Assembly (NCBI GenBank): GCA_040754315.1
Contig: JBFMCS010000005.1
Coordinates: 1 to 32,361, forward strand
From: Bacillota bacterium
GTDB taxonomy: Bacteria; Bacillota; Sulfobacillia; DUSP01; JBFMCS01
Direction: 5' to 3'
DNA length: 32,361 nt
A model generated the notes under the pieces. It was not told where the DNA came from. It ran no database searches and saw only the letters and a program-made list of their open reading frames with translations. This document shows positions 6,993 through 16,940 of the stretch, in pieces. A program made the translations under genes and the position numbers. Positions within the stretch are counted from its first letter, which is position 1; every line of letters begins with the position of its first letter.

Positions 6993-7730
6993 CTAGCAGC
7001 GCAATGCCCCGCCCTTCCACGTATAGGGCGCAGGTGGCGAACAAGATCCCATCCTCCCAGCGGTCCAGCCTGCGCGAACCCGGGCAGGAGTGTCGTGGAC
7101 ACGAACATGGCCGGGTGATGCAGCACCAGGAGGCGCTGGAGAGGGGGACGCCCCAACTACCGTGACCAGCTCAGGCAACAAGGTGCCCATCGCGATCACG
7201 GTGAGGCTGAGGAAAACCTCAGAAAGACCCAGGGCCAAGACTAGGTTGATGCCGGAGTTCACCGGGAGGCGGCTGCCTAACCCTGCCATGATGCCGCCCG
7301 GCACGAGCAGGCCCACCCGGACCCCAGTGGCGGGCCTGGCGTCGCCCACATCATCAAGGCGGCCGCCTCCGCCGCACGGATTCGCGACAGCGTACCGGCA
7401 ACGGCCAACGCCCTGTAGGTGGCAACCAAGGCCAGCAAGACCTCCCCTTGCCACCGTCCAGCGCCATTGCCGCGATGAGGGCCGCCGCGACAAGCATGAA
7501 GAAACAGCCTCCTGTCGACGAGAGACCCCCTCATCAGAACGCTTCCTCCAAGGATAGGGCCGGCACTACACAGCACCGAACCCAGGGTGGTTCCCAGAAG
7601 CCATGCTGGTATGCCCCTTCAGGGCTCGAACGTGGAGACCGAGGGCTCCGGCAGCGTCGTGGCCAGGCTAGCGATGTTGCGTGACCTAGATGGCAGTAAC
7701 TGGGCAAACCCAGCGCGGGTGAAGTAAAGA
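6993..7730 (-). pseudogene. Decayed copy of a Ca2+/Na+ antiporter gene
   Basis: Read on the minus strand in several frames, this stretch matches the intact antiporter at 12779-13732 piece by piece. Pieces include 'SLATTLPEPSVSTFEP' (intact SLATTLPEFSVSTYAAL), 'GPILGGSVLMRGSLVDRRLF' (GLIFGGSVLARGFLTDRRLF), 'LPVNSGINLVLALGLSEVFL' and 'MGTLLPELVTVV'. The end has 'PAMFVSTTLLPGFAQ' and a tryptophan-glycine piece like the intact C-terminus. An in-frame stop follows FEP, several frameshifts separate the pieces, and about 40 codons of the second repeat's loop are missing. The first 20 or so residues cannot be traced past about 7730. It cannot encode a transporter. It is either an old duplicate or a relic of a horizontally acquired homologue. 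Confidence 0.85.
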
Positions 7731-7974: not shown

Positions 7975-8148
7975 ATGACGCCAAAGCACAGGAACCTCGT
8001 GAAGACGGGCAGCCCGGACCGCCGGAGCCCCCCTGGCAAGAACCCAAGGGCGCCCCGGACGCTAGTGACCGTTGACAGCCCTGACGATCCCCCCGAGCCC
8101 GGGGAGCACTCGCGGCCTAGCCGAGAGCCTGCTCCAGGTCGGCGATGA
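7975..8148 (+). CDS. Possible small protein, 57 residues
   Basis: An ATG at 7975 is preceded by GAGGGAGGA at good spacing. It opens a 57-residue frame rich in proline, arginine and serine ('SPDRRSPPGKNPRAPR'), with no hydrophobic core, signal peptide or known motif. It converges on and overlaps the last 32 bp of the PLP-enzyme gene on the other strand. The ribosome binding site is the only real support. It may be an intrinsically disordered small protein or a chance frame in GC-rich DNA. Confidence 0.25.
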   Translation: MTPKHRNLVKTGSPDRRSPPGKNPRAPRTLVTVDSPDDPPEPGEHSRPSREPAPGRR

Positions 8149-9286
8149 GGTCTAGGGGATCCTCGATCCCCACAGAGAACCTTACCAGTGAAGGTGTAAT
8201 GCCCGCCAAGCGGCGTTCCTCCTCGGGCATGCCCCTGTGAACACAGACAACGGGCTGGGTTATGAGGGATTCCACGGATCCCAGGCTGACTGCGCGGGTA
8301 AATACCTTCACCCTGTCGATAAGGGCATCCACGCCAGGCTGTCCTCCCCTTATATCCGCGCTCAGCAGGCCGCCGTAGCCGGGGGCCATTTGCCGCTTAG
8401 CCAGCTGATGGCCGGGATCCTGGGGCAGGCCTGGGTAGTATACCCTCTGGATCCTTGGGTGATCCTGGAGGTACTCAGCCACCCGCTGGGCGTTGGAGTT
8501 GTGCTTTTCCATCCTCAGCCCGAGGGTCTTTAGTCCTCGTACCAGGAGCCATGCATCGAACCCGTTGATGGTGGCCCCCATCTTCCTGGCGAGGTCCAGG
8601 CAGTCGCTGATGTAGGCTCGGGAGCCCACCACTGCTCCTGCCACCACGTCACTGTGGCCGTTCAGGTACTTGGTGCAACTGTGAACCACAGCATCGGCGC
8701 CGAGGGCGAGCGGGCGCTGGTTGTAGGGTGAGGCAAGGGTGTTGTCCACGATGACTCGCACTCCCCTGGGGCGGGCAATCCGGGCCATGTCGGCGATATC
8801 ACATACCAACAGTGTGGGATTGCTGGGGGTCTCCAGGAGCAGCGCCCTGGTGTTGGGCCGTATCGCCGCCTCCACCTCAGCCGGGTCTAGAGTGTTCACC
8901 AGGGTGTACTCGATGGCAAGACGGGGGAACACCGAATGCAGCAGGTTGAAGGTGCCCCCGTAGGTGCCCCGCTGGCACAGCACGTGGTCTCCGGAGGTGG
9001 CCAGCGCAAGCAGGGCAACTGAGATTGCGGCTATGCCTGACGCCAGCACCAGCCCGGCCTCGCCCTCCTCAATGTGGGCGATCTTCTCCTCAGCCATAGC
9101 GGTGTTGGGATTGCCGTGGCGGGCGTAGATGAAGCCCGGGCCTTCGCTGGCCATGTGCCGTTCAAGACTGTCATTGTCCGGGAAGGCGAAGGTAGAAGAG
9201 GTGTAGATTGGAGGCACTACCGCTCCAGTGGCAGGGTCTGGTTTCTCGGCAGTATGAACCAGTCTGGTGTTGAACCCATCTGTCAA
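8117..9286 (-). CDS. Trans-sulfuration family PLP-dependent enzyme (cystathionine gamma-synthase/lyase-like)
   Basis: The 389 residues are typical of the Cys/Met metabolism PLP family (PF01053), which carries out beta/gamma elimination or replacement on sulfur amino acids. Visible features are YAR at 54-56 (phosphate contacts from the partner subunit), 'ETPSNPTL' near 152, cofactor D181 in DNT, and the Schiff-base lysine K206 in 'SCTKYLNGHSDVVAG'. The position that is cysteine in methionine gamma-lyase is G111 ('TYGGTF'), which favours cystathionine gamma-synthase or gamma-lyase, though exact specificity cannot be decided. The TTG start follows GGAGGGGAG. It lies 75 bp downstream of the FAD oxidoreductase gene on the same strand and is probably co-transcribed. 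No metA or metE homologue is adjacent. Confidence 0.9.
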   Translation of the reverse strand: MTDGFNTRLVHTAEKPDPATGAVVPPIYTSSTFAFPDNDSLERHMASEGPGFIYARHGNPNTAMAEEKIAHIEEGEAGLVLASGIAAISVALLALATSGDHVLCQRGTYGGTFNLLHSVFPRLAIEYTLVNTLDPAEVEAAIRPNTRALLLETPSNPTLLVCDIADMARIARPRGVRVIVDNTLASPYNQRPLALGADAVVHSCTKYLNGHSDVVAGAVVGSRAYISDCLDLARKMGATINGFDAWLLVRGLKTLGLRMEKHNSNAQRVAEYLQDHPRIQRVYYPGLPQDPGHQLAKRQMAPGYGGLLSADIRGGQPGVDALIDRVKVFTRAVSLGSVESLITQPVVCVHRGMPEEERRLAGITPSLVRFSVGIEDPLDLIADLEQALG

Positions 9287-9361
9287 GGCTTCTCCCCTCC
9301 AGTGTCTCGTCCTGGAGTCATCTTCTTCCCAAGACCCGTATCCCCTGCAAGGTCATCCCCT

Positions 9362-10642
9362 CTAGCGCAGGGGTTCTGAAAATACGCCCTGAACCCCTGA
9401 CTCCCTGACCCGGCGCTCTATCGTGTCAAGGTCAGTGGAGTACAGTCCCCGTTCCTTCATGGCATCAAAGAGGAAGGAACCTGAGAAGGTGTACTTCTTC
9501 CGGATCCCCTCCTCGGTTTCCATTTCACGCCCTACCATCCAGACAGCAAGGCCCACAGCAAGGCCTTGCGGGATCTTCAGCAGCTCCTCGCCGTAGGCCA
9601 GCCTCGCGGCGTTGTGGCCAGCCAGGCTTCCCGTGGCGATGGCCTCAGTGTGCCCGACGTATGGGCCGCACTTCTCTCCTGCACAAAAGAGGTTTGCAAG
9701 ACCCTCGACCCGCAAGGTGCTGTCACGGGGGGCCATGCTGAAGTAGCGCATGGAGTTTCCTCGACCCGCCGCGTAGGGGTCTTCGTACCGGGCATTCTCC
9801 AGGCCTGGCACGCTCCTGAGGAACTCCAGGGGGAAGTAGCTGGTCATCATCTTGGCGTGGCCAGTATCCAGGAGAACCAGGTTGTCGGAGAACTCCGGGA
9901 GGGCATACTGCTGGCATGCCTTCATGGGAAGTTTCTCTTCCGCCCGCAGGTGGCGTGGGAGGGCCAAGACCCACACGCCCCGGTCGTCCAGGACCTGCCG
10001 GACCTCCGTGGACAGCGAGTCCTTCAAGAGCTTGCACGAGCCGCTCATTGAACCCAGGGTGCCCTTGGATGTGATGCCCACCCTCTCGGGCACACCAGCC
10101 TTGGCGGCCAGGCTCACCCTGGGGCCAAAGGCTGGGCACCTGAGGATGCACATGACACACCCGTGGCCGTAGCGAAGGCAGTTGCCCTGGGGGCCAGCCG
10201 TTCCTGTTGTCTCGACGAAGGCGTCCCCTGGAAACTCCCGGCCCCCCTCAGCCACCACTGCCTCCAGGTGCCCGCCAGACCGCCGGAGGTCTACCGCCCG
10301 GGTCTCCAGGAAAACCTCGACTCCGGCGCTTGTAAGGAGGGCGCGCACGCCCGGCTCCACCAGGCTGACATCGTACAGCGTGGCATGGTTGTGACCGGGA
10401 AACCTGACTTCCCGGTGCCGCGCTACGGAATCCGTGAGGTCAATCAGCTCGGGCGCTCCAAGGCACCGCAGCTCCTCCGCCGCCGTGAAACGCCCGTTAT
10501 TGCGCATAATACCTCCAACCAGCCCCGTGCCCAGGAGCTGATCTGTCTTTTCTAGGAGCGCCACCCTGGCTCCCATCTTTCGTGCGGCCAGGCTAGCGGC
10601 ACAGCCTGCCCAGCCCCCTCCTGCCACCACAACGTCGGGCAA
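9362..10642 (-). CDS. FAD-dependent oxidoreductase with a cysteine cluster
   Basis: About 426 residues, soluble. The N-terminus is a Rossmann dinucleotide fold (VVVAGGGWAGCAASLAAR, then the acidic 'ALLEK'). Near the C-terminus is a second FAD contact, 'LFCAGEKCGPYVGHTEAIAT', similar in style to GidA/TrmFO and FAD_oxidored (PF12831) proteins. A central cluster 'CLRYGHGCVMCILRC' puts four cysteines within 15 residues and could bind an iron-sulfur cluster or act in thiol redox chemistry. I prefer the TTG at 10642, because GGGAGGAG lies just upstream; the ATG at 10660 would place that site inside the coding region. The substrate is unknown. Downstream is the trans-sulfuration enzyme; upstream is an AT-rich possible operator. 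Confidence 0.85.
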   Translation of the reverse strand: MPDVVVAGGGWAGCAASLAARKMGARVALLEKTDQLLGTGLVGGIMRNNGRFTAAEELRCLGAPELIDLTDSVARHREVRFPGHNHATLYDVSLVEPGVRALLTSAGVEVFLETRAVDLRRSGGHLEAVVAEGGREFPGDAFVETTGTAGPQGNCLRYGHGCVMCILRCPAFGPRVSLAAKAGVPERVGITSKGTLGSMSGSCKLLKDSLSTEVRQVLDDRGVWVLALPRHLRAEEKLPMKACQQYALPEFSDNLVLLDTGHAKMMTSYFPLEFLRSVPGLENARYEDPYAAGRGNSMRYFSMAPRDSTLRVEGLANLFCAGEKCGPYVGHTEAIATGSLAGHNAARLAYGEELLKIPQGLAVGLAVWMVGREMETEEGIRKKYTFSGSFLFDAMKERGLYSTDLDTIERRVRESGVQGVFSEPLR

Positions 10643-10689
10643 TGTGGCTCCTCCCTTCATGGGCCCCTGGGCGTCGCTGGCCCGAGTTA

Positions 10690-10721
10690 CCTGCCCATAT
10701 ATAGTAATATAATAAGGCAGG
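10690..10721 (-). promoter_or_regulatory. AT-rich promoter/operator region for the FAD–PLP genes
   Basis: A 20-bp block made almost only of A and T (10696-10715, minus strand reading TTATTATATTACTATATAT) is framed by the inverted repeat CCTGCC/GGCAGG. In such GC-rich DNA this is striking. It lies just upstream of the FAD gene and downstream of a terminator, as expected for a promoter with an operator. No clear -35 box is seen. Confidence 0.4.
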
Positions 10722-10761
10722 GACTCCGGATTTGTTCATGTCTCCCGGCAGCCCCTGGTGG

Positions 10762-10783
10762 AAAAAGGGAAGGCAGGTTCCCT
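10762..10783 (-). terminator. Probable intrinsic terminator after the ATC-hydrolase-like gene
   Basis: On the minus strand AGGGAA, a 6-nt loop and TTCCCT are followed by a run of T. The stem begins at the stop codon of the gene ending at 10782. The stem is short at 6 bp, so efficiency is uncertain. It would separate the 12584-10782 unit from the FAD–PLP unit. Confidence 0.45.
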
Positions 10784-11285
10784 AGGCGGAACTCCCTGGC
10801 TCCTCAATCCTCATGACGCACCACTCGTCCCCGTCCAGCACGTTCCTGGGGTGCGAGCACTGGATTCCCTCTTTGTACGCTGAGTACTTGGAGGGGTCCA
10901 CGAGGCAGTAGAGCCTGCCCAGGCTGGCGCAACCCTGGGCTATCCAGTACTGTGCCAGCGGGCACCGGCTAATCTTCACCTCCCGGATCCCCGGCTCGTC
11001 CCGGGTGACCTCCAGGCTCCAACCCACCGATGGGAGGTCCTTGCCGAGGGCATAGTTGGCGATACTCAGATCCTCACCCATACTCCCTACCTTGGAGCGG
11101 ACCTTCGTGCCGCATTCCTGCCCGTAGGCTGTGACTGCCTGGGATACCAGGGCCCTTCCCCGCTCCTCTCCCAGCTCATCCACGATTGCCTGGGCGAAGT
11201 GGCGGTATAGCATGGCCAGGCGCTCCGCCAGGATTTCCACGTCCCTCTCATGCTCTGGCGATACAGTCGGGCTCACAGGTTTCAC
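10782..11285 (-). CDS. L-2-amino-thiazoline-4-carboxylic acid hydrolase-like protein
   Basis: A 167-residue protein of the ATC_hydrolase type (PF14196), named for the Pseudomonas enzyme that opens the thiazoline ring on the way to L-cysteine. The family signature lies in the C-terminal half: 'RCPLAQYW', 'CASLGRLYCLVDPSKY', 'IQCSHPRNVLDGDEWCVM', with several conserved cysteines and a Cys-Ser-His. Most family members in anaerobes are uncharacterised, so thiazoline hydrolysis should not be taken as given. The GTG start at 11285 follows AGGGG closely; a GTG at 11276 has better spacing to the same site. It begins 36 bp after the unrecognised gene upstream and is surely co-transcribed with it. A sulfur-amino-acid enzyme lies two genes downstream, which fits a thiol-related role. 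Confidence 0.75.
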   Translation of the reverse strand: MKPVSPTVSPEHERDVEILAERLAMLYRHFAQAIVDELGEERGRALVSQAVTAYGQECGTKVRSKVGSMGEDLSIANYALGKDLPSVGWSLEVTRDEPGIREVKISRCPLAQYWIAQGCASLGRLYCLVDPSKYSAYKEGIQCSHPRNVLDGDEWCVMRIEEPGSSA

Positions 11286-11321
11286 CCCTCAGGTGATGTG
11301 CCGTTCCCAGGTGCCCCTGGT

Positions 11322-12584
11322 CTAGCGCCGGTGCAGCCTCCTGGCGCCTACGAAAGAGAGGCCGCGCTCGGTGAGTGCCCTGGCAGTCCGGTTCACAGCA
11401 TCATGCTTATCCAGGTAGTTGATGAGCATCCTCTCCATGTCGCCGCCCTGGACTATTTCATCCTTGAACCGGAAGTAATCAAGGATGTCCGAGGGGTGTT
11501 CCCGGGTGGCTTCCACCTCGGGATCGCCCCCTTCATGCTTGGCAGAGATGTTGGGCACCTCCCGGGCCACATCAAGAAGCTCATCCCTGCGGTTGTAGGG
11601 CTGGCGTACGATGCTCTTGGCCGTCTCGGTGATGTGGTGCTCGATGCGGACCTGGTCCTCCAGGTCGAGCCTTCTCCTTATCTCCGAGCTCAGGCGGATC
11701 GTACTGTTGTCAACTGAATTGCTCAGGTTGAACCCCTCCAGGGGGGTTGAGCCATCCTCGCGGCCCAGGAGCCGGGCCATCATGAGCGTCCAGAGCACTG
11801 AGTAGGGATTGTCGTTCCCCATGAATACGGAGATCTTGAACTTCACATCGATGCCCAGCCTGTACAGCATGTACCCCAGGAGCACGGTTCCAGGGTTGAT
11901 GTTTAGAACCTGGTCAATGCCGTACTGGGTGTAGTAATAAAGGTACTCGTCTACCCACGCCAGGGCATGGTCGTTGGGCTGGCCCACCCCACCGAAGTAG
12001 CCGGTGATGCACTCGGGGCCCCCCAGGTGGAGGTTAGAGCCGTCAGTACCCCGGGTATCCAGTGTCTCAACGTAACTGGCGCCGATGATCTGCATAGCTG
12101 CGGCCACCGCCAGGGTGTCTCCATCATCCCGTTCCTGCTCCCGCATCTTGCGAACGCGAATGTACCTGCCTGGCATGATCTCCTGGGCGTCGATGGCCCT
12201 CTGGGCCTCAGCGATGAGCCAGGGGAAGTACTGCAGGGCGCTGATCTCAAGGGTGACGGCCTTCCCCTCGTCAAAGCACATGGCGGGGTTCTCCCGGCCC
12301 AGCACCCCCTGGCGGTAGTCGCCGATGCTCACGAAGGCCCCCCGGTCCCTTTCCGCCGCCAGCCATTGCAGGTCCCTTAGATAGGGGGAACCCATGTTGG
12401 TGAGGCGCTGGAGAAGATTGGGAAGGTTCCGGGCCTCCCGGGCCCGGGCGTTGATCTGTTCAGGGGTTCCATGCTTCGCTACCACCCGGAGAACATCGCT
12501 TACCAGCGGGTTACAGGGGTCCTGGAGGAAGCTATTGATGTCGCTAATGGCCTTTGTGTCTAGGCTAATCTGACCTGTGGGCAT
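11322..12584 (-). CDS. Conserved-looking protein of unknown function, first gene of the minus-strand operon
   Basis: I do not recognise the family. The chosen start (ATG at 12584, after AAGGAG) gives 420 residues; an in-frame ATG at 12623 has no usable ribosome binding site. The protein is soluble, with no signal peptide, membrane segment or cysteine cluster. The middle looks like an alpha/beta barrel: alternating strands and helices with 'GASYVETLDTRGTDGSNLHL', 'GGPECITGYFGGVGQ', 'GIDQVLNINPGTVLLGYML' and 'KFKISVFMGNDNPYSVL'. Aspartates, asparagines and histidines cluster at strand ends, as in barrel active sites. The C-terminal quarter is helical and charged. It overlaps no neighbour and is followed at 36 bp by the ATC-hydrolase-like gene, suggesting a shared pathway. 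An enzyme is likely; the reaction is unknown. Confidence 0.75.
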   Translation of the reverse strand: MPTGQISLDTKAISDINSFLQDPCNPLVSDVLRVVAKHGTPEQINARAREARNLPNLLQRLTNMGSPYLRDLQWLAAERDRGAFVSIGDYRQGVLGRENPAMCFDEGKAVTLEISALQYFPWLIAEAQRAIDAQEIMPGRYIRVRKMREQERDDGDTLAVAAAMQIIGASYVETLDTRGTDGSNLHLGGPECITGYFGGVGQPNDHALAWVDEYLYYYTQYGIDQVLNINPGTVLLGYMLYRLGIDVKFKISVFMGNDNPYSVLWTLMMARLLGREDGSTPLEGFNLSNSVDNSTIRLSSEIRRRLDLEDQVRIEHHITETAKSIVRQPYNRRDELLDVAREVPNISAKHEGGDPEVEATREHPSDILDYFRFKDEIVQGGDMERMLINYLDKHDAVNRTARALTERGLSFVGARRLHRR

Positions 12585-12724
12585 GATCCAACTCTCCTTC
12601 GGCAGTATTCGTCCCAAGTTCATCGACTCCCAGGACTATTACGTCTCAGGGCCCCTATCCTCCTGCCAGTGCCGGGCGGTTTTACTGTGTGGGGTGCCAC
12701 TACCCGAACACCCACGCCGGGGTG

Positions 12725-12730
12725 TATAAT
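12725..12730 (+). promoter_or_regulatory. Possible -10 box for the antiporter gene
   Basis: A perfect TATAAT lies about 48 bp upstream of the ATG at 12779, in the divergent gap between the minus-strand operon and this gene. No good TTGACA-like box is found 16-18 bp upstream, so only the -10 half is supported. Confidence 0.35.
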
Positions 12731-12778
12731 CAACCTGGAGCCGGACAAGCCCGAAGCCATACCAGAAGGGGGTCACCA

Positions 12779-13732
12779 ATGCTCTCGCTTGACCTTGCCC
12801 TGTTCGCGGTTGGGGTCATAGTCGTGATCAAAGGGGCGGACTACTTCACGGATGGAGCCATCTGTCTTGCCAGGGTGACCGGTATCTCGGAGGTTATCAT
12901 CGGCGCCACCGTGGTAAGCTTGGCCACGACCCTCCCGGAGTTCTCCGTGTCCACGTACGCTGCCCTGAAGGGCCACACCGACATGGCCGCCGGCAACGCC
13001 CTGGGTTCCGTGTTGTTCAACACAGGACTCATATTCGGCGGTAGCGTCCTGGCCAGGGGTTTCCTCACGGACCGGAGGCTTTTTAGGCAAGAGGGTGGGT
13101 TCATGCTGGGCGCGGCAGTGCTTACCCTGGCCATGGGGCTGGACGGTACGATTACCAGGGGGGAGGGCGGGATCTTACTGGCTGTGTTCGTCCTGTACAT
13201 GGCGGTGGCCACCTTCAATGCCGTGGCCCAGAGTCGTGCCTCGGAGGTAGCAGCTGGGGATGACAGCTGGGCCAAGCCCGCGCTGCGCGGGAGCACAGGG
13301 CTCTTTGTCTTGGGGGGACTCATGGTGGCGTTTGGCAGCCGTCTCCTGGTTAATTCGGGGATTAGCATAGCCGTTACCCTGGGCGTGTCCGAGATGTTCC
13401 TGGGTCTTACCCTTGTCGCTGCGGGTACGTCCCTCCCGGAGCTGGTCACGGCTGTGGTGGCCCTGGCAAAGGGGCACCAGGCTCTCTCGGTAGGCAACAT
13501 ATTGGGGGCGAACTTCTTGAACCTTACGTGGGTCATGGGAATGGCCGCGGTCGTCCGGGGGGTTCCCTTCTCCACCGTCACTACTGGTCTTGATCTCCCG
13601 GCCGTGCTTGTCTCCTTGGTGATGTTGCTTTGGTTTGCCAGGACCACTGAGAGGTTGGACAGGTGGGAGGGCGGGGTTCTCCTTGGCACCTATGTGCTGT
13701 ATGTGGCCTACAGGGGCATTTCCCTCCTGTGA
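12779..13732 (+). CDS. Ca2+/Na+ antiporter family membrane protein (YrbG type)
   Basis: A 317-residue inner-membrane protein with about ten hydrophobic segments and two inverted halves, as in the sodium/calcium exchanger family (PF01699). Each half carries an alpha-repeat: 'ATVVSLATTLPEFSVSTYAA' in the first and 'LVAAGTSLPELVTAVVALAKGH' followed by 'SVGNILGANFLNL' in the second. The acidic residues in 'LPE' coordinate the cation. It exchanges cations across the cytoplasmic membrane; ion preference cannot be read. The ATG at 12779 is chosen because AAGGGGG lies at good spacing and the first membrane helix starts at once; the frame upstream to 12689 has no membrane or family sequence. A ruined homologue lies at 6993-7730. 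Confidence 0.9.
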   Translation: MLSLDLALFAVGVIVVIKGADYFTDGAICLARVTGISEVIIGATVVSLATTLPEFSVSTYAALKGHTDMAAGNALGSVLFNTGLIFGGSVLARGFLTDRRLFRQEGGFMLGAAVLTLAMGLDGTITRGEGGILLAVFVLYMAVATFNAVAQSRASEVAAGDDSWAKPALRGSTGLFVLGGLMVAFGSRLLVNSGISIAVTLGVSEMFLGLTLVAAGTSLPELVTAVVALAKGHQALSVGNILGANFLNLTWVMGMAAVVRGVPFSTVTTGLDLPAVLVSLVMLLWFARTTERLDRWEGGVLLGTYVLYVAYRGISLL

Positions 13733-14628: not shown

Positions 14629-15393
14629 ATGGCCCCGGAGCGGCTCCAGAACGTCCTTAGTGGCGCAGGTTTGGCCTCCCGGCGACGAGCTGCCGCCATA
14701 ATCCGGGAGGGCCGGGTGGCAGTAAATGGCATCACCGTCAGCGAGCCCGGGTACCGGGTTGAGGGTGGGGACGTAGTCACCCTGGATGGCGAACCGGTTG
14801 GAGCCAGGGAAAACACCATATACCTTCTTCTGCACAAGCCGGTGGGCTACGTCAGCACAGTCCGGGACCCGCAGGGACGGAAGACGGTGATGGACCTGGT
14901 TTTTGGGGTGTCCCAGCGGGTCTATCCTGTGGGCCGGCTTGACCTTGACTCCTCAGGGCTCATTCTCATGACCAACGATGGTGACCTCGCGGCCAGTCTT
15001 GCTCACCCCAGGTACCAGGTGAGCAAGACCTACAGGGTGCGAGTCATTGGCGTGCCGTCGTCCCGGGCTCTGGCCTGCCTCAGGGAGGGCGTGTCCCTGG
15101 AGGATGGCGTCACCGCACCCGCCGAGATCCGCCTTGCCGGCCGCTGGGCCAAAGGGGCCGAGATGGAGTTCGTTCTGCGGGAGGGGAAGAAACGCCAAGT
15201 GAGACGCATGTGCCAGGCTGTGGGACACCCGGTCTCAGCGCTGTGCCGCACAGCCCTGGGCCCCCTGGAGCTGGGGGACCTGGCGCCGGGAGCCTGGCGG
15301 CCGTTAGGACCGGCAGAGATCAGGGCGCTGAAACAGGCGCCAAGGAGGTGGAGAAGTGAGAGAGGCCCTGGTGGTCGTGGACATGCTCGCTGA
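14629..15393 (+). CDS. rluB: RsuA/RluB-family 23S/16S rRNA pseudouridine synthase
   Basis: A 254-residue enzyme that isomerises a specific uridine of ribosomal RNA to pseudouridine. An S4 RNA-binding domain covers residues 3-50 ('RLQNVLSGAGLASRRRAAAII'-type start and the 'GRVAVNG' turn). The catalytic domain has 'LLLHKPVGYVST' and the active-site aspartate D105 in GRLDLDSSGLILMTNDG. A late 'EGKKRQVRRMCQAVGHPV' motif is diagnostic of the RsuA/RluB/RluE/RluF branch. RluB is the likeliest member because Clostridia usually carry it near cmk, but RsuA cannot be excluded. The ATG follows GGGGAGGGG. Its last 38 bp overlap the nicotinamidase gene, so the two are probably translationally linked. The C-terminal tail is arginine- and glycine-rich. 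Confidence 0.9.
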   Translation: MAPERLQNVLSGAGLASRRRAAAIIREGRVAVNGITVSEPGYRVEGGDVVTLDGEPVGARENTIYLLLHKPVGYVSTVRDPQGRKTVMDLVFGVSQRVYPVGRLDLDSSGLILMTNDGDLAASLAHPRYQVSKTYRVRVIGVPSSRALACLREGVSLEDGVTAPAEIRLAGRWAKGAEMEFVLREGKKRQVRRMCQAVGHPVSALCRTALGPLELGDLAPGAWRPLGPAEIRALKQAPRRWRSERGPGGRGHAR

Positions 15394-15883
15394 TTTTTTG
15401 GATCCCACAGGCACTCTGTACTGTGGAGACGCGGCCAGGGGCATCATCCCAGCGGTCCACGAGGCCGTGGAGAAGGCCCGGGCGCGGGGCATACCTGTGC
15501 TTTATGTGGCGGACACCCATGATCCGGATGACCCGGAGTTCCAGGTGTTCCCGCCCCACTGTGTTGCCGGGACTTGGGGATCCGGGGTCATACCCGAGAT
15601 ACTCCCCCAAGAGGGCGAACCCGTTATAGCAAAGAGGCGCTTCAGCGGTTTCTACGGGACCGACCTGGACCTCCGTCTCCGGGAGAGGGGCATCGACTCC
15701 CTGGTGCTTGTGGGAGTCTGCACCAACATATGTGTGCTGTATACAGCCGCGGATGCCCGCATGCGCAACTATGGCGTCACAGTGCCCAGGGATTCCGTGG
15801 CCTCCTTTGACCCGGAGGCAGGGGGGTTTGCCCTGGGGCAGATGGAGAAGGTCCTAGGTGTCCAGGTGGTATCCTCCTGGTGA
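15356..15883 (+). CDS. pncA: Nicotinamidase-like cysteine hydrolase (isochorismatase superfamily)
   Basis: A 175-residue single-domain hydrolase, the normal size. The catalytic triad is visible: D9 in 'VVVDMLADF', K93 in 'IAKRRFSGF' and C126 in 'GVCTNICVLYTAADA'. A metal-binding pattern follows strand three ('ADTHDPDDPEF', then 'FPPHC'), as in nicotinamidases that convert nicotinamide to nicotinate. The GTG start at 15356 is preceded by AAGGAGG and lies inside the end of the pseudouridine synthase gene. The next gene, 22 bp on, is nicotinate phosphoribosyltransferase, which uses nicotinate directly. That pairing makes nicotinamidase far likelier than other isochorismatase-family activities. 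Confidence 0.85.
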   Translation: MREALVVVDMLADFLDPTGTLYCGDAARGIIPAVHEAVEKARARGIPVLYVADTHDPDDPEFQVFPPHCVAGTWGSGVIPEILPQEGEPVIAKRRFSGFYGTDLDLRLRERGIDSLVLVGVCTNICVLYTAADARMRNYGVTVPRDSVASFDPEAGGFALGQMEKVLGVQVVSSW

Positions 15884-15905
15884 GCGCGACTGAAAGAGGG
15901 GTGAC

Positions 15906-16940
15906 TTGGCAGCCTTGCGAAGCTTGAAGGAGGCCGGGGAACTGGAGATCCGTCCAGACCGGCGGCTGTTCTCAGCCACGCACGAGGAGATCATTGACGG
16001 AGAAACCACAGACGTTTACTTCATGAAGACCTACGACCTCCTAGACCATCTAGGACTTCTGGATACACCAGTAGCCGCAGAGGTCTTCACCTCGGGATCG
16101 GGCACTTGCTGTGGCATCCAGGAGTGCCTTAACCTCCTGGAGGGACACGCCTGCGAGGTCTGGGCCCTGGACGAGGGGGAGGAGTTCGGGCCCAAGGAAC
16201 CCATCATGCAGGTGCGGGGGCCCTACGGCGCCTTCGGCTTCTACGAGACGGCCATCCTGGGGATCCTCGCCAGTTCCAGCGCCTGGGCCACTGCGGCCCG
16301 GGAGTGTCGCAATGCAGCCAAGGGGAAGCCCTTCATCTGCTTTGGAGCCAGGCACGTGCACCCGGCGGTAGCCCCCGTCATGGAGCGGGCTGCGGTTCTC
16401 GGGGGGGCCACTGGTGCCAGCTGCGTCCTGGGGGCCAGGCTGGCCGGCCTGCAACCCACAGGGACCATCCCCCACGCGGCCATTCTCATAGCCGGGGACA
16501 CAGTGAGGGTGGCCCAGGCCTATCACGAGATTATGCCGGAATCATCCCCCAGGATCATACTCGTGGATACCTTCAAGGACGAGGCCGAGGAGACACTCAG
16601 GGTGGCCCGGGCCCTGGGGCGCCACCTCGAGGGGGTGCGCCTGGACACCCCAGGGGAGAGGGGCGGTGTCACTGAGGCACTGGTGGCCGAGGTCAGGGCC
16701 CGTCTCGACGGCGAGGGCTTCTTCCATGTCAAGGTTTTCGTATCTGGAGGGCTTAACCCCGAACGAATTAATGCCCTGGGAAGGGCAGGAGCTGATGCCT
16801 TTGGGGTGGGCAGCTACATCTCAGGTGCCAAGCCCATAGACATGACCCTGGACCTGAAGGAGATCAATGGCAAGCCCGTGGCCAAGCGAGGACGCATTCC
16901 GGGCCTCCGGCCTCCCTCAAGGCTACGCCGGCGACTGTAG
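15906..16940 (+). CDS. pncB: Nicotinate phosphoribosyltransferase
   Basis: A 344-residue enzyme joining nicotinate to PRPP to form nicotinate mononucleotide, the committed step of NAD salvage. This is the short form found in many Firmicutes and archaea. Family features are 'DGETTDVYFMKTYDLL' near residue 27, 'EVWALDEGEEFGPKEPIMQV', the substrate-loop 'ARHVHPAVAPVMERAA', 'PTGTIPHA', 'VDTFKDEAEETLRVA' and the C-terminal phosphate-binding 'VFVSGGLNPERI' with 'GVGSYI'. The TTG start follows GAAAGAGGGG. It works directly after the nicotinamidase encoded upstream, and the two form a salvage module inside the rluB–cmk run. The C-terminal tail is arginine-rich. Paralogous quinolinate phosphoribosyltransferase is excluded by length and motifs. 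Confidence 0.92.
   Translation: MAALRSLKEAGELEIRPDRRLFSATHEEIIDGETTDVYFMKTYDLLDHLGLLDTPVAAEVFTSGSGTCCGIQECLNLLEGHACEVWALDEGEEFGPKEPIMQVRGPYGAFGFYETAILGILASSSAWATAARECRNAAKGKPFICFGARHVHPAVAPVMERAAVLGGATGASCVLGARLAGLQPTGTIPHAAILIAGDTVRVAQAYHEIMPESSPRIILVDTFKDEAEETLRVARALGRHLEGVRLDTPGERGGVTEALVAEVRARLDGEGFFHVKVFVSGGLNPERINALGRAGADAFGVGSYISGAKPIDMTLDLKEINGKPVAKRGRIPGLRPPSRLRRRL

Follow-up and report, generated by a model that had tools for sequence, protein, structure and literature searches.

Ketopantoate hydroxymethyltransferase, PanB (PF02548), a set of barrel enzymes comprising class II fructose-bisphosphate aldolase, methylisocitrate lyase, PEP mutase and methylenetetrahydrofolate reductase, and glutamate mutase E (PF06368), the barrel subunit of a coenzyme B12 enzyme, are the described systems closest to the protein analysed here. 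In PanB, positions 212 and 214 line the substrate pocket. We analysed a window of 32,361 nucleotides (the whole stretch of DNA under study, from a Bacillota bacterium), in which a gene of 420 codons, Q420, lies on the minus strand at 11322..12584. Its product is predicted to be a (beta/alpha)8-barrel enzyme and belongs to a conserved family that has no name. The gene downstream belongs to the L-2-amino-thiazoline-4-carboxylic acid hydrolase (ATC hydrolase) family (PF14196), of which Q420 is not a member.

The Q420 gene starts with an ATG at 12584 on the minus strand and has GGAGAG just 5' of the start. An alternative in-frame ATG at 12623 would give a protein of 433 residues; we favour the start at 12584 because matches to homologues begin only at residues 13-24 of the longer form. 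The open reading frame is far beyond chance, since the frame is kept in hundreds of homologues at 60-75% identity. The ATC_hydrolase-family gene (10782-11285, minus strand; PF14196, 62 bits against a cut-off of 28.1) follows 36 bases downstream of Q420, and is itself followed by genes for an FAD enzyme with a Cys cluster, GCVMCILRC (9362-10660, minus strand; GIDA/FAD_oxidored, a GidA-like oxidoreductase), and for a PLP enzyme of Cys/Met metabolism (8117-9286, minus strand; PF01053, 462 bits), the best NCBIfam match of which, methionine gamma-lyase, is below cut-off. A preliminary description of this DNA, made from its letters, had read the 420-residue frame and the order of its operon genes correctly; the frame, the PF14196 gene, and the FAD and PLP genes were all found as described there. 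An intact Na/Ca exchanger gene (12689-13732, plus strand) lies divergently upstream of Q420, and a broken exchanger remnant (6993-7618, minus strand) is found on the downstream side of the block 8117-12584. Insertion or duplication between the exchanger copies may have brought this block to its place. In genome G002, which belongs to the same order as the window, an exchanger gene comes after the FAD enzyme (locus L191). Elsewhere in the window (15356-16940, plus strand), genes for an isochorismatase-family hydrolase and a nicotinate phosphoribosyltransferase adjoin and are likely an NAD salvage pair.

Q420 had no match in Pfam or NCBIfam at a meaningful E-value and passed no curated cut-off; no family from either collection was matched consistently by 57 homologues, and a sequence search of the PDB with Q420 gave no match. 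Moreover, no literature on the family, or on a PanB paralogue with another function, was found among open-licence papers. In a scan of about 85,000 GTDB species genomes, we found at least 247 relatives and retained 80, which are 60-74% identical. The carriers are mostly anaerobic Bacteria together with some Archaea, from about 15 phyla, and include Anoxynatronum buryatiense Su22, the Synergistota strain L-13 and a Polaromonas plasmid, the copy on which is 60% identical and annotated as 'hypothetical protein'. Identity is still >60% when the protein of a spore-forming bacterium is compared with that of an Asgard archaeon. Closer to the window, Q420 was found in the window's genome and in 12 of 60 relatives (one marginal partial match was left out). 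Among 299 genomes of the phylum, 12 including the window's own contain it; every match was below 1e-220, and the profile search of these genomes gave no intermediate or paralogous relatives between that level and no match.

The Q420 tree covers 15 phyla, including Thermoplasmatota and one Asgard archaeon, and several phyla are split in it; the homologue from G002 sits in the other half of the tree from the window's protein. The split phyla and the position of the G002 homologue suggest horizontal transfer of Q420, with binning errors in metagenome-assembled genomes as an alternative. One homologue (genome G092, locus L167, C66:121510-122751) contains a single in-frame TGA at a non-conserved position. 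Selenocysteine was rejected for this codon, the alignment column being Y/F/L, and the gene is probably broken or carries a sequencing error.

The AlphaFold2 model of Q420, built on an alignment of 58 sequences (A1), had a pLDDT of 90.2 and a pTM of 0.90. In it, a helical region some 100 residues long precedes an eight-strand (beta/alpha)8 barrel with strands at residues 110-117, 140-143, 170-173, 225-228, 248-251, 282-286, 313-319 and 346-350, so that the predicted fold is that of a (beta/alpha)8 (TIM) barrel. The barrel, residues about 106-353 with strands b1-b8 (11525..12269, minus strand, with codons counted from the start at 12584), holds most of the invariant positions: 126 columns of A1 are conserved at 98% or more, and 104 of the 126 are inside it. 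The conserved polar columns sit on or just after strands and are, strand by strand, E113 and Q118; R140, R145 and E149; E173, D176, D181, N184 and H186; N228 and N230; K250, S252, N257 and D258; N286 and N289; E315, H316, H317 and E320; and K349, H350 and E351. The only low-confidence segment of the model (pLDDT < 50) is the largely invariant loop after strand b3, residues 179-190 (G.DG.N.HLGG.; 12015..12050, minus strand). Low confidence would fit a loop that becomes ordered when substrate binds, and the modelled loop is probably such an active-site lid. With Foldseek, the model matched only generic barrels in the PDB; the best matches had E-values of 6.5e-4 and weaker, and the best TM-score on the query was 0.36. 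Altogether, the view that this is an otherwise unplaceable, barrel-like enzyme recurring in anaerobes holds on each point: Pfam, NCBIfam and PDB sequence matches are lacking, the carriers are mostly anaerobes, the model is a confident (beta/alpha)8 barrel, and Asp, Glu, His and Lys are conserved at the strand ends, in model and alignment, where Asp and His had been looked for.

Clustering of the neighbours of Q420 across about 90 loci identified a PanB paralogue (PF02548), here termed PanB2, that is its immediate neighbour in about 42 of them. PanB2 lies within 2.5 kb of Q420 in 42 of 98 loci and in none at 5-9 kb, in a distance control with 433 kb of sequence in the near zone and 454 kb in the far zone. 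Both gene orders occur, PanB2-Q420 in 28 of 40 pairs and Q420-PanB2 in the remaining 12. The distance matrices of the two proteins correlate (r = 0.61, with 0 of 2000 permutations as high), a correlation to which shared species history contributes. In maximum-likelihood trees, all Q420-adjacent PanBs fall into one clade (support 100/98 in the first tree and 91/99 in a larger one), and PanBs beside PanC stand apart from it. Moreover, a gene of the PanB2 clade was present in each of the 24 Q420 genomes that were examined near the window, and in the window's class in 13 of 13 genomes with Q420 as opposed to 10 of 48 without it (Fisher p = 1.7e-7, genomes treated as independent).

We also examined 28 Q420 genomes from other lineages that were picked for lack of an adjacent PanB2. 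Some PanB was present in 21 of them and a PanB2-clade copy, as placed by a quick FastTree, in 11; PanB is missing altogether from the other seven, among which are two Methanomassiliicoccales and a further member of the Thermoplasmata. Because seven Q420 genomes lack PanB and only 11 of the 28 have a PanB2-clade copy, Q420 does not strictly depend on PanB2. In total, we conclude that the link between Q420 and PanB2 is strong but not obligatory, and that neither protein has a strict requirement for the other. The window's own genome carries its PanB2-clade gene on a different contig, C36, and this gene belongs to a subclade that comes mostly from genomes without Q420. It is followed there (L128, G000 C36:57000-67069) by genes for an M20 deacylase of the ArgE/DapE type and a DoeA/EutD-like ectoine-hydrolase homologue, and then by arginase-family and aminotransferase genes, possibly an amide or amino-acid degradation cluster; the ectoine-hydrolase-type peptidase scores 480 bits, below the cut-off of 613. 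In some relatives the number of PanB homologues rises to between three and six, and several of these fall within the PanB2 clade (G138: L225-L228 and L189; G168: L229, L230 and L184; G092: L222-L224). Judged by these sequences, PanB has diversified in the window's phylum.

PanB2 proteins match PF02548 with E-values down to 1e-114 and are thus members of the PanB family. Compared with an E. coli PanB reference sequence, they are about 40-45% identical and retain D45, S46, D84, K112, E114, H136 and E181, i.e. seven of the seven catalytic positions checked (E. coli numbering). The residues at positions 212 and 214 are replaced by the bulkier Leu and Ile, from which we infer that the substrate of PanB2 is probably a 2-oxo acid smaller than 2-oxoisovalerate. 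Q420 itself bears no sequence relation to PanB (no PF02548 match; hhalign probability 0.1%).

Beyond PanB2, a dehydrogenase of the Glu/Leu/Val type occurs near Q420 in 12 loci and in none in the far zone at 5-9 kb. These loci come from Chloroflexota, Thermodesulfobacteriota, Cyanobacteriota, Coprothermobacterota and Bacillota, and the dehydrogenases differ in subtype; the two Coprothermobacterota copies lie about 1.8 kb from Q420 on the opposite strand. DapA-family aldolase genes are found near Q420 in three loci (L037, L071 and L080), and the Polaromonas plasmid has one at a distance of about 3 kb. By comparison with the 5-9 kb zone, aminotransferases, M20 deacylases, TRAP binding proteins, ACT-sigma54 regulators and ABC/transport genes were not clearly enriched near Q420. 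A gcvT gene was discarded as neighbour evidence because glycine riboswitches lie between it and Q420 in Tindallia. No Rfam riboswitch or other cis element was found upstream of Q420 in the window or in 25 loci.

Individual loci show further neighbours. In Syntrophomonadaceae (L056, L061 and L067), a U32-peptidase-like protein of about 317-320 residues is encoded directly behind Q420; it has a weak match to Pfam U32 and none to an NCBIfam family, and is also present in L049. On the Polaromonas P1-6 plasmid (L268, CP087967.1 99384-128631), a divergent sigma-54 regulator and SDR, DapA-like and TRAP genes surround Q420, together with genes for Ldh_2, Fe-ADH and succinate-semialdehyde dehydrogenase and, about 3 kb away, a gamma-lyase-type gene. 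In a deltaproteobacterial metagenome-assembled genome (L037 14130-17494), altronate/galactarate-dehydratase, IlvD/Edd-family and DapA-family genes lie near a row of PanB2, an FGGY kinase and Q420, hinting at sugar-acid chemistry.

The dehydrogenase or gamma-lyase neighbours, the PanB2 or DapA-type neighbours and the acid/base-rich pocket of the barrel are most economically read as parts of a 2-oxo-acid pathway. In the reading we favour, to which we give slightly less than an even chance, Q420 represents a so far unnamed family of soluble enzymes with a (beta/alpha)8 barrel that serve the metabolism of amino-acid-derived 2-oxo acids (or hydroxy acids), acting at a lyase or isomerase step adjacent to that of PanB2 as a folate-dependent 2-oxo-acid hydroxymethyltransferase. 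A Glu/Leu/Val-type dehydrogenase or a methionine-gamma-lyase-type enzyme would connect an amino acid with a 2-oxo acid, PanB2 would shift a one-carbon unit between methylene-tetrahydrofolate and the 2-oxo acid, and Q420 would carry out the adjacent lyase or isomerase step on a 2-oxo or 4-hydroxy-2-oxo acid, while its loop 179-190 shuts over the bound substrate. In loci that lack PanB2, the DapA-family aldolase that is sometimes found near Q420 may perform an analogous aldol step. Together these steps would amount to a pathway of catabolism or interconversion, with Q420 either forming or consuming a 2-oxo or 4-hydroxy-2-oxo acid. More tentatively, and with the probability well on the lower side, Q420 and PanB2 could be the core of an undescribed, widespread pathway, mainly of anaerobes, that passes a one-carbon unit in either direction between tetrahydrofolate and a 2-oxo acid derived from an amino acid (e.g. 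2-oxobutanoate from methionine or threonine, or 4-hydroxy-2-oxobutanoate/pyruvate). Q420 would then be a barrel enzyme of a new type that produces or uses up a hydroxymethyl-2-oxo acid.

Several other explanations bear on the same observations. Q420 could have a pathway of its own, with the PanB2 link reflecting co-regulation or co-transfer, e.g. of interchangeable parts of one-carbon and amino-acid metabolism; the existence of Q420 genomes without PanB, the 10 of 48 genomes with PanB2 and without Q420, and the variety of the other neighbours are consistent with this, whereas the near-versus-far distribution of PanB2, the two gene orders and the correlated distances argue for a closer connection, and we regard the idea as rather unlikely. 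A role of both proteins in pantothenate/CoA synthesis, with Q420 as a non-homologous replacement of PanC or ketopantoate reductase, would agree with the complete PanB catalytic set of PanB2 and with the lack of PanC in 11 of 24 Q420 genomes (the search covered PanC). However, PanC is present in the other 13, several genomes (such as G046 and G193) have a canonical PanB beside PanC in addition to a separate PanB2-Q420 pair, and the seven Q420 genomes without any PanB also speak against such a role, which we therefore consider improbable. PanB2 did not occur consistently together with PanC and the pathway as a pantothenate-synthesis enzyme would, and since 11 of the 24 genomes lack PanC, PanB2 in those genomes is probably not for pantothenate. 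A distant relationship to glutamate mutase E, in which Q420 would rearrange carbon skeletons together with a separate B12-binding subunit, seems equally improbable. The order of motifs in Q420 resembles that of glutamate mutase E by eye, and the sole hhalign segment between them pairs the same helix (WVDEYLYYYTQYGID with WQYVDRLVGYYEENGVS); yet that comparison reached a probability of only 0.2% (E 0.36, with both alignments low in diversity, which could hide a very remote relation), PF06368 had no match at E <= 1 in any of 58 Q420 members, and glutamate mutase was absent from the best 50 Foldseek matches listed for Q420. Moreover, no B12-binding gene was noticed as a recurrent neighbour of Q420, and no cobalamin riboswitch was found in the 26 sources searched.

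The preliminary description had instead paired Q420 with the ATC-hydrolase-like gene as partners in a thiazoline or sulfur amino-acid pathway, with the FAD enzyme and the trans-sulfuration enzyme as further operon members. The short distance and common strand of the first two genes in the window, the FAD enzyme and methionine-gamma-lyase-like gene that follow them, and the recurrence of gamma-lyase-type genes near Q420 in G138, where the match is above the NCBIfam cut-off, and on the Polaromonas plasmid are in line with that pairing. By contrast, although PF14196 is present in 13 of 24 Q420 genomes, the window's genome is the only one where the two share a contig, and PF14196 was not found near Q420 in any of about 90 other loci; the adjacency is thus confined to the window's genome and the linkage is not conserved. 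The FAD enzyme, present in 27 of 61 relatives, did not adjoin Q420, the PLP enzyme or the ATC hydrolase in any locus examined outside the window and so falls away as an operon partner, while the trans-sulfuration enzyme keeps some weak support from the gamma-lyase-type genes of two other lineages. In total, the four window genes do not form a conserved unit, and we consider a thiazoline or sulfur amino-acid partnership very improbable. Of the proposed undescribed sulfur or amino-acid pathway, the amino-acid part is supported by the neighbourhoods of Q420; evidence for thiazoline or sulfur chemistry was not found, and the conserved partner is a PanB paralogue.

The Q420 family is a real annotation gap, having no model in Pfam, NCBIfam or the PDB despite its occurrence in hundreds of genomes. 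As for PanB2, a PanB copy that is kept by genomes with incomplete pantothenate synthesis, its link with Q420 suggests a second role in metabolism for folate chemistry of the PanB kind, chiefly among uncultured anaerobes.

In comparison with known systems, Q420 shares the general fold with class II fructose-bisphosphate aldolase, methylisocitrate lyase, PEP mutase and methylenetetrahydrofolate reductase, which were the best Foldseek matches. It differs from these metal-dependent aldolases and lyases and from the reductase in that all TM-scores on the query are 0.36 or less, and hence none is >0.5, in that identities are 6-15%, and in its extra N-terminal helical region of about 100 residues. 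With glutamate mutase E it has in common a barrel with an N-terminal extension and a loosely similar order of motifs by eye, while the profile similarity is not significant. As modelled, Q420 is a new family within a known fold. Its partner PanB2, by contrast, is a full homologue of PanB with the seven checked catalytic positions identical, and differs from it in forming a clade of its own, in the larger residues at positions 212 and 214, and in occurring in genomes without PanC.
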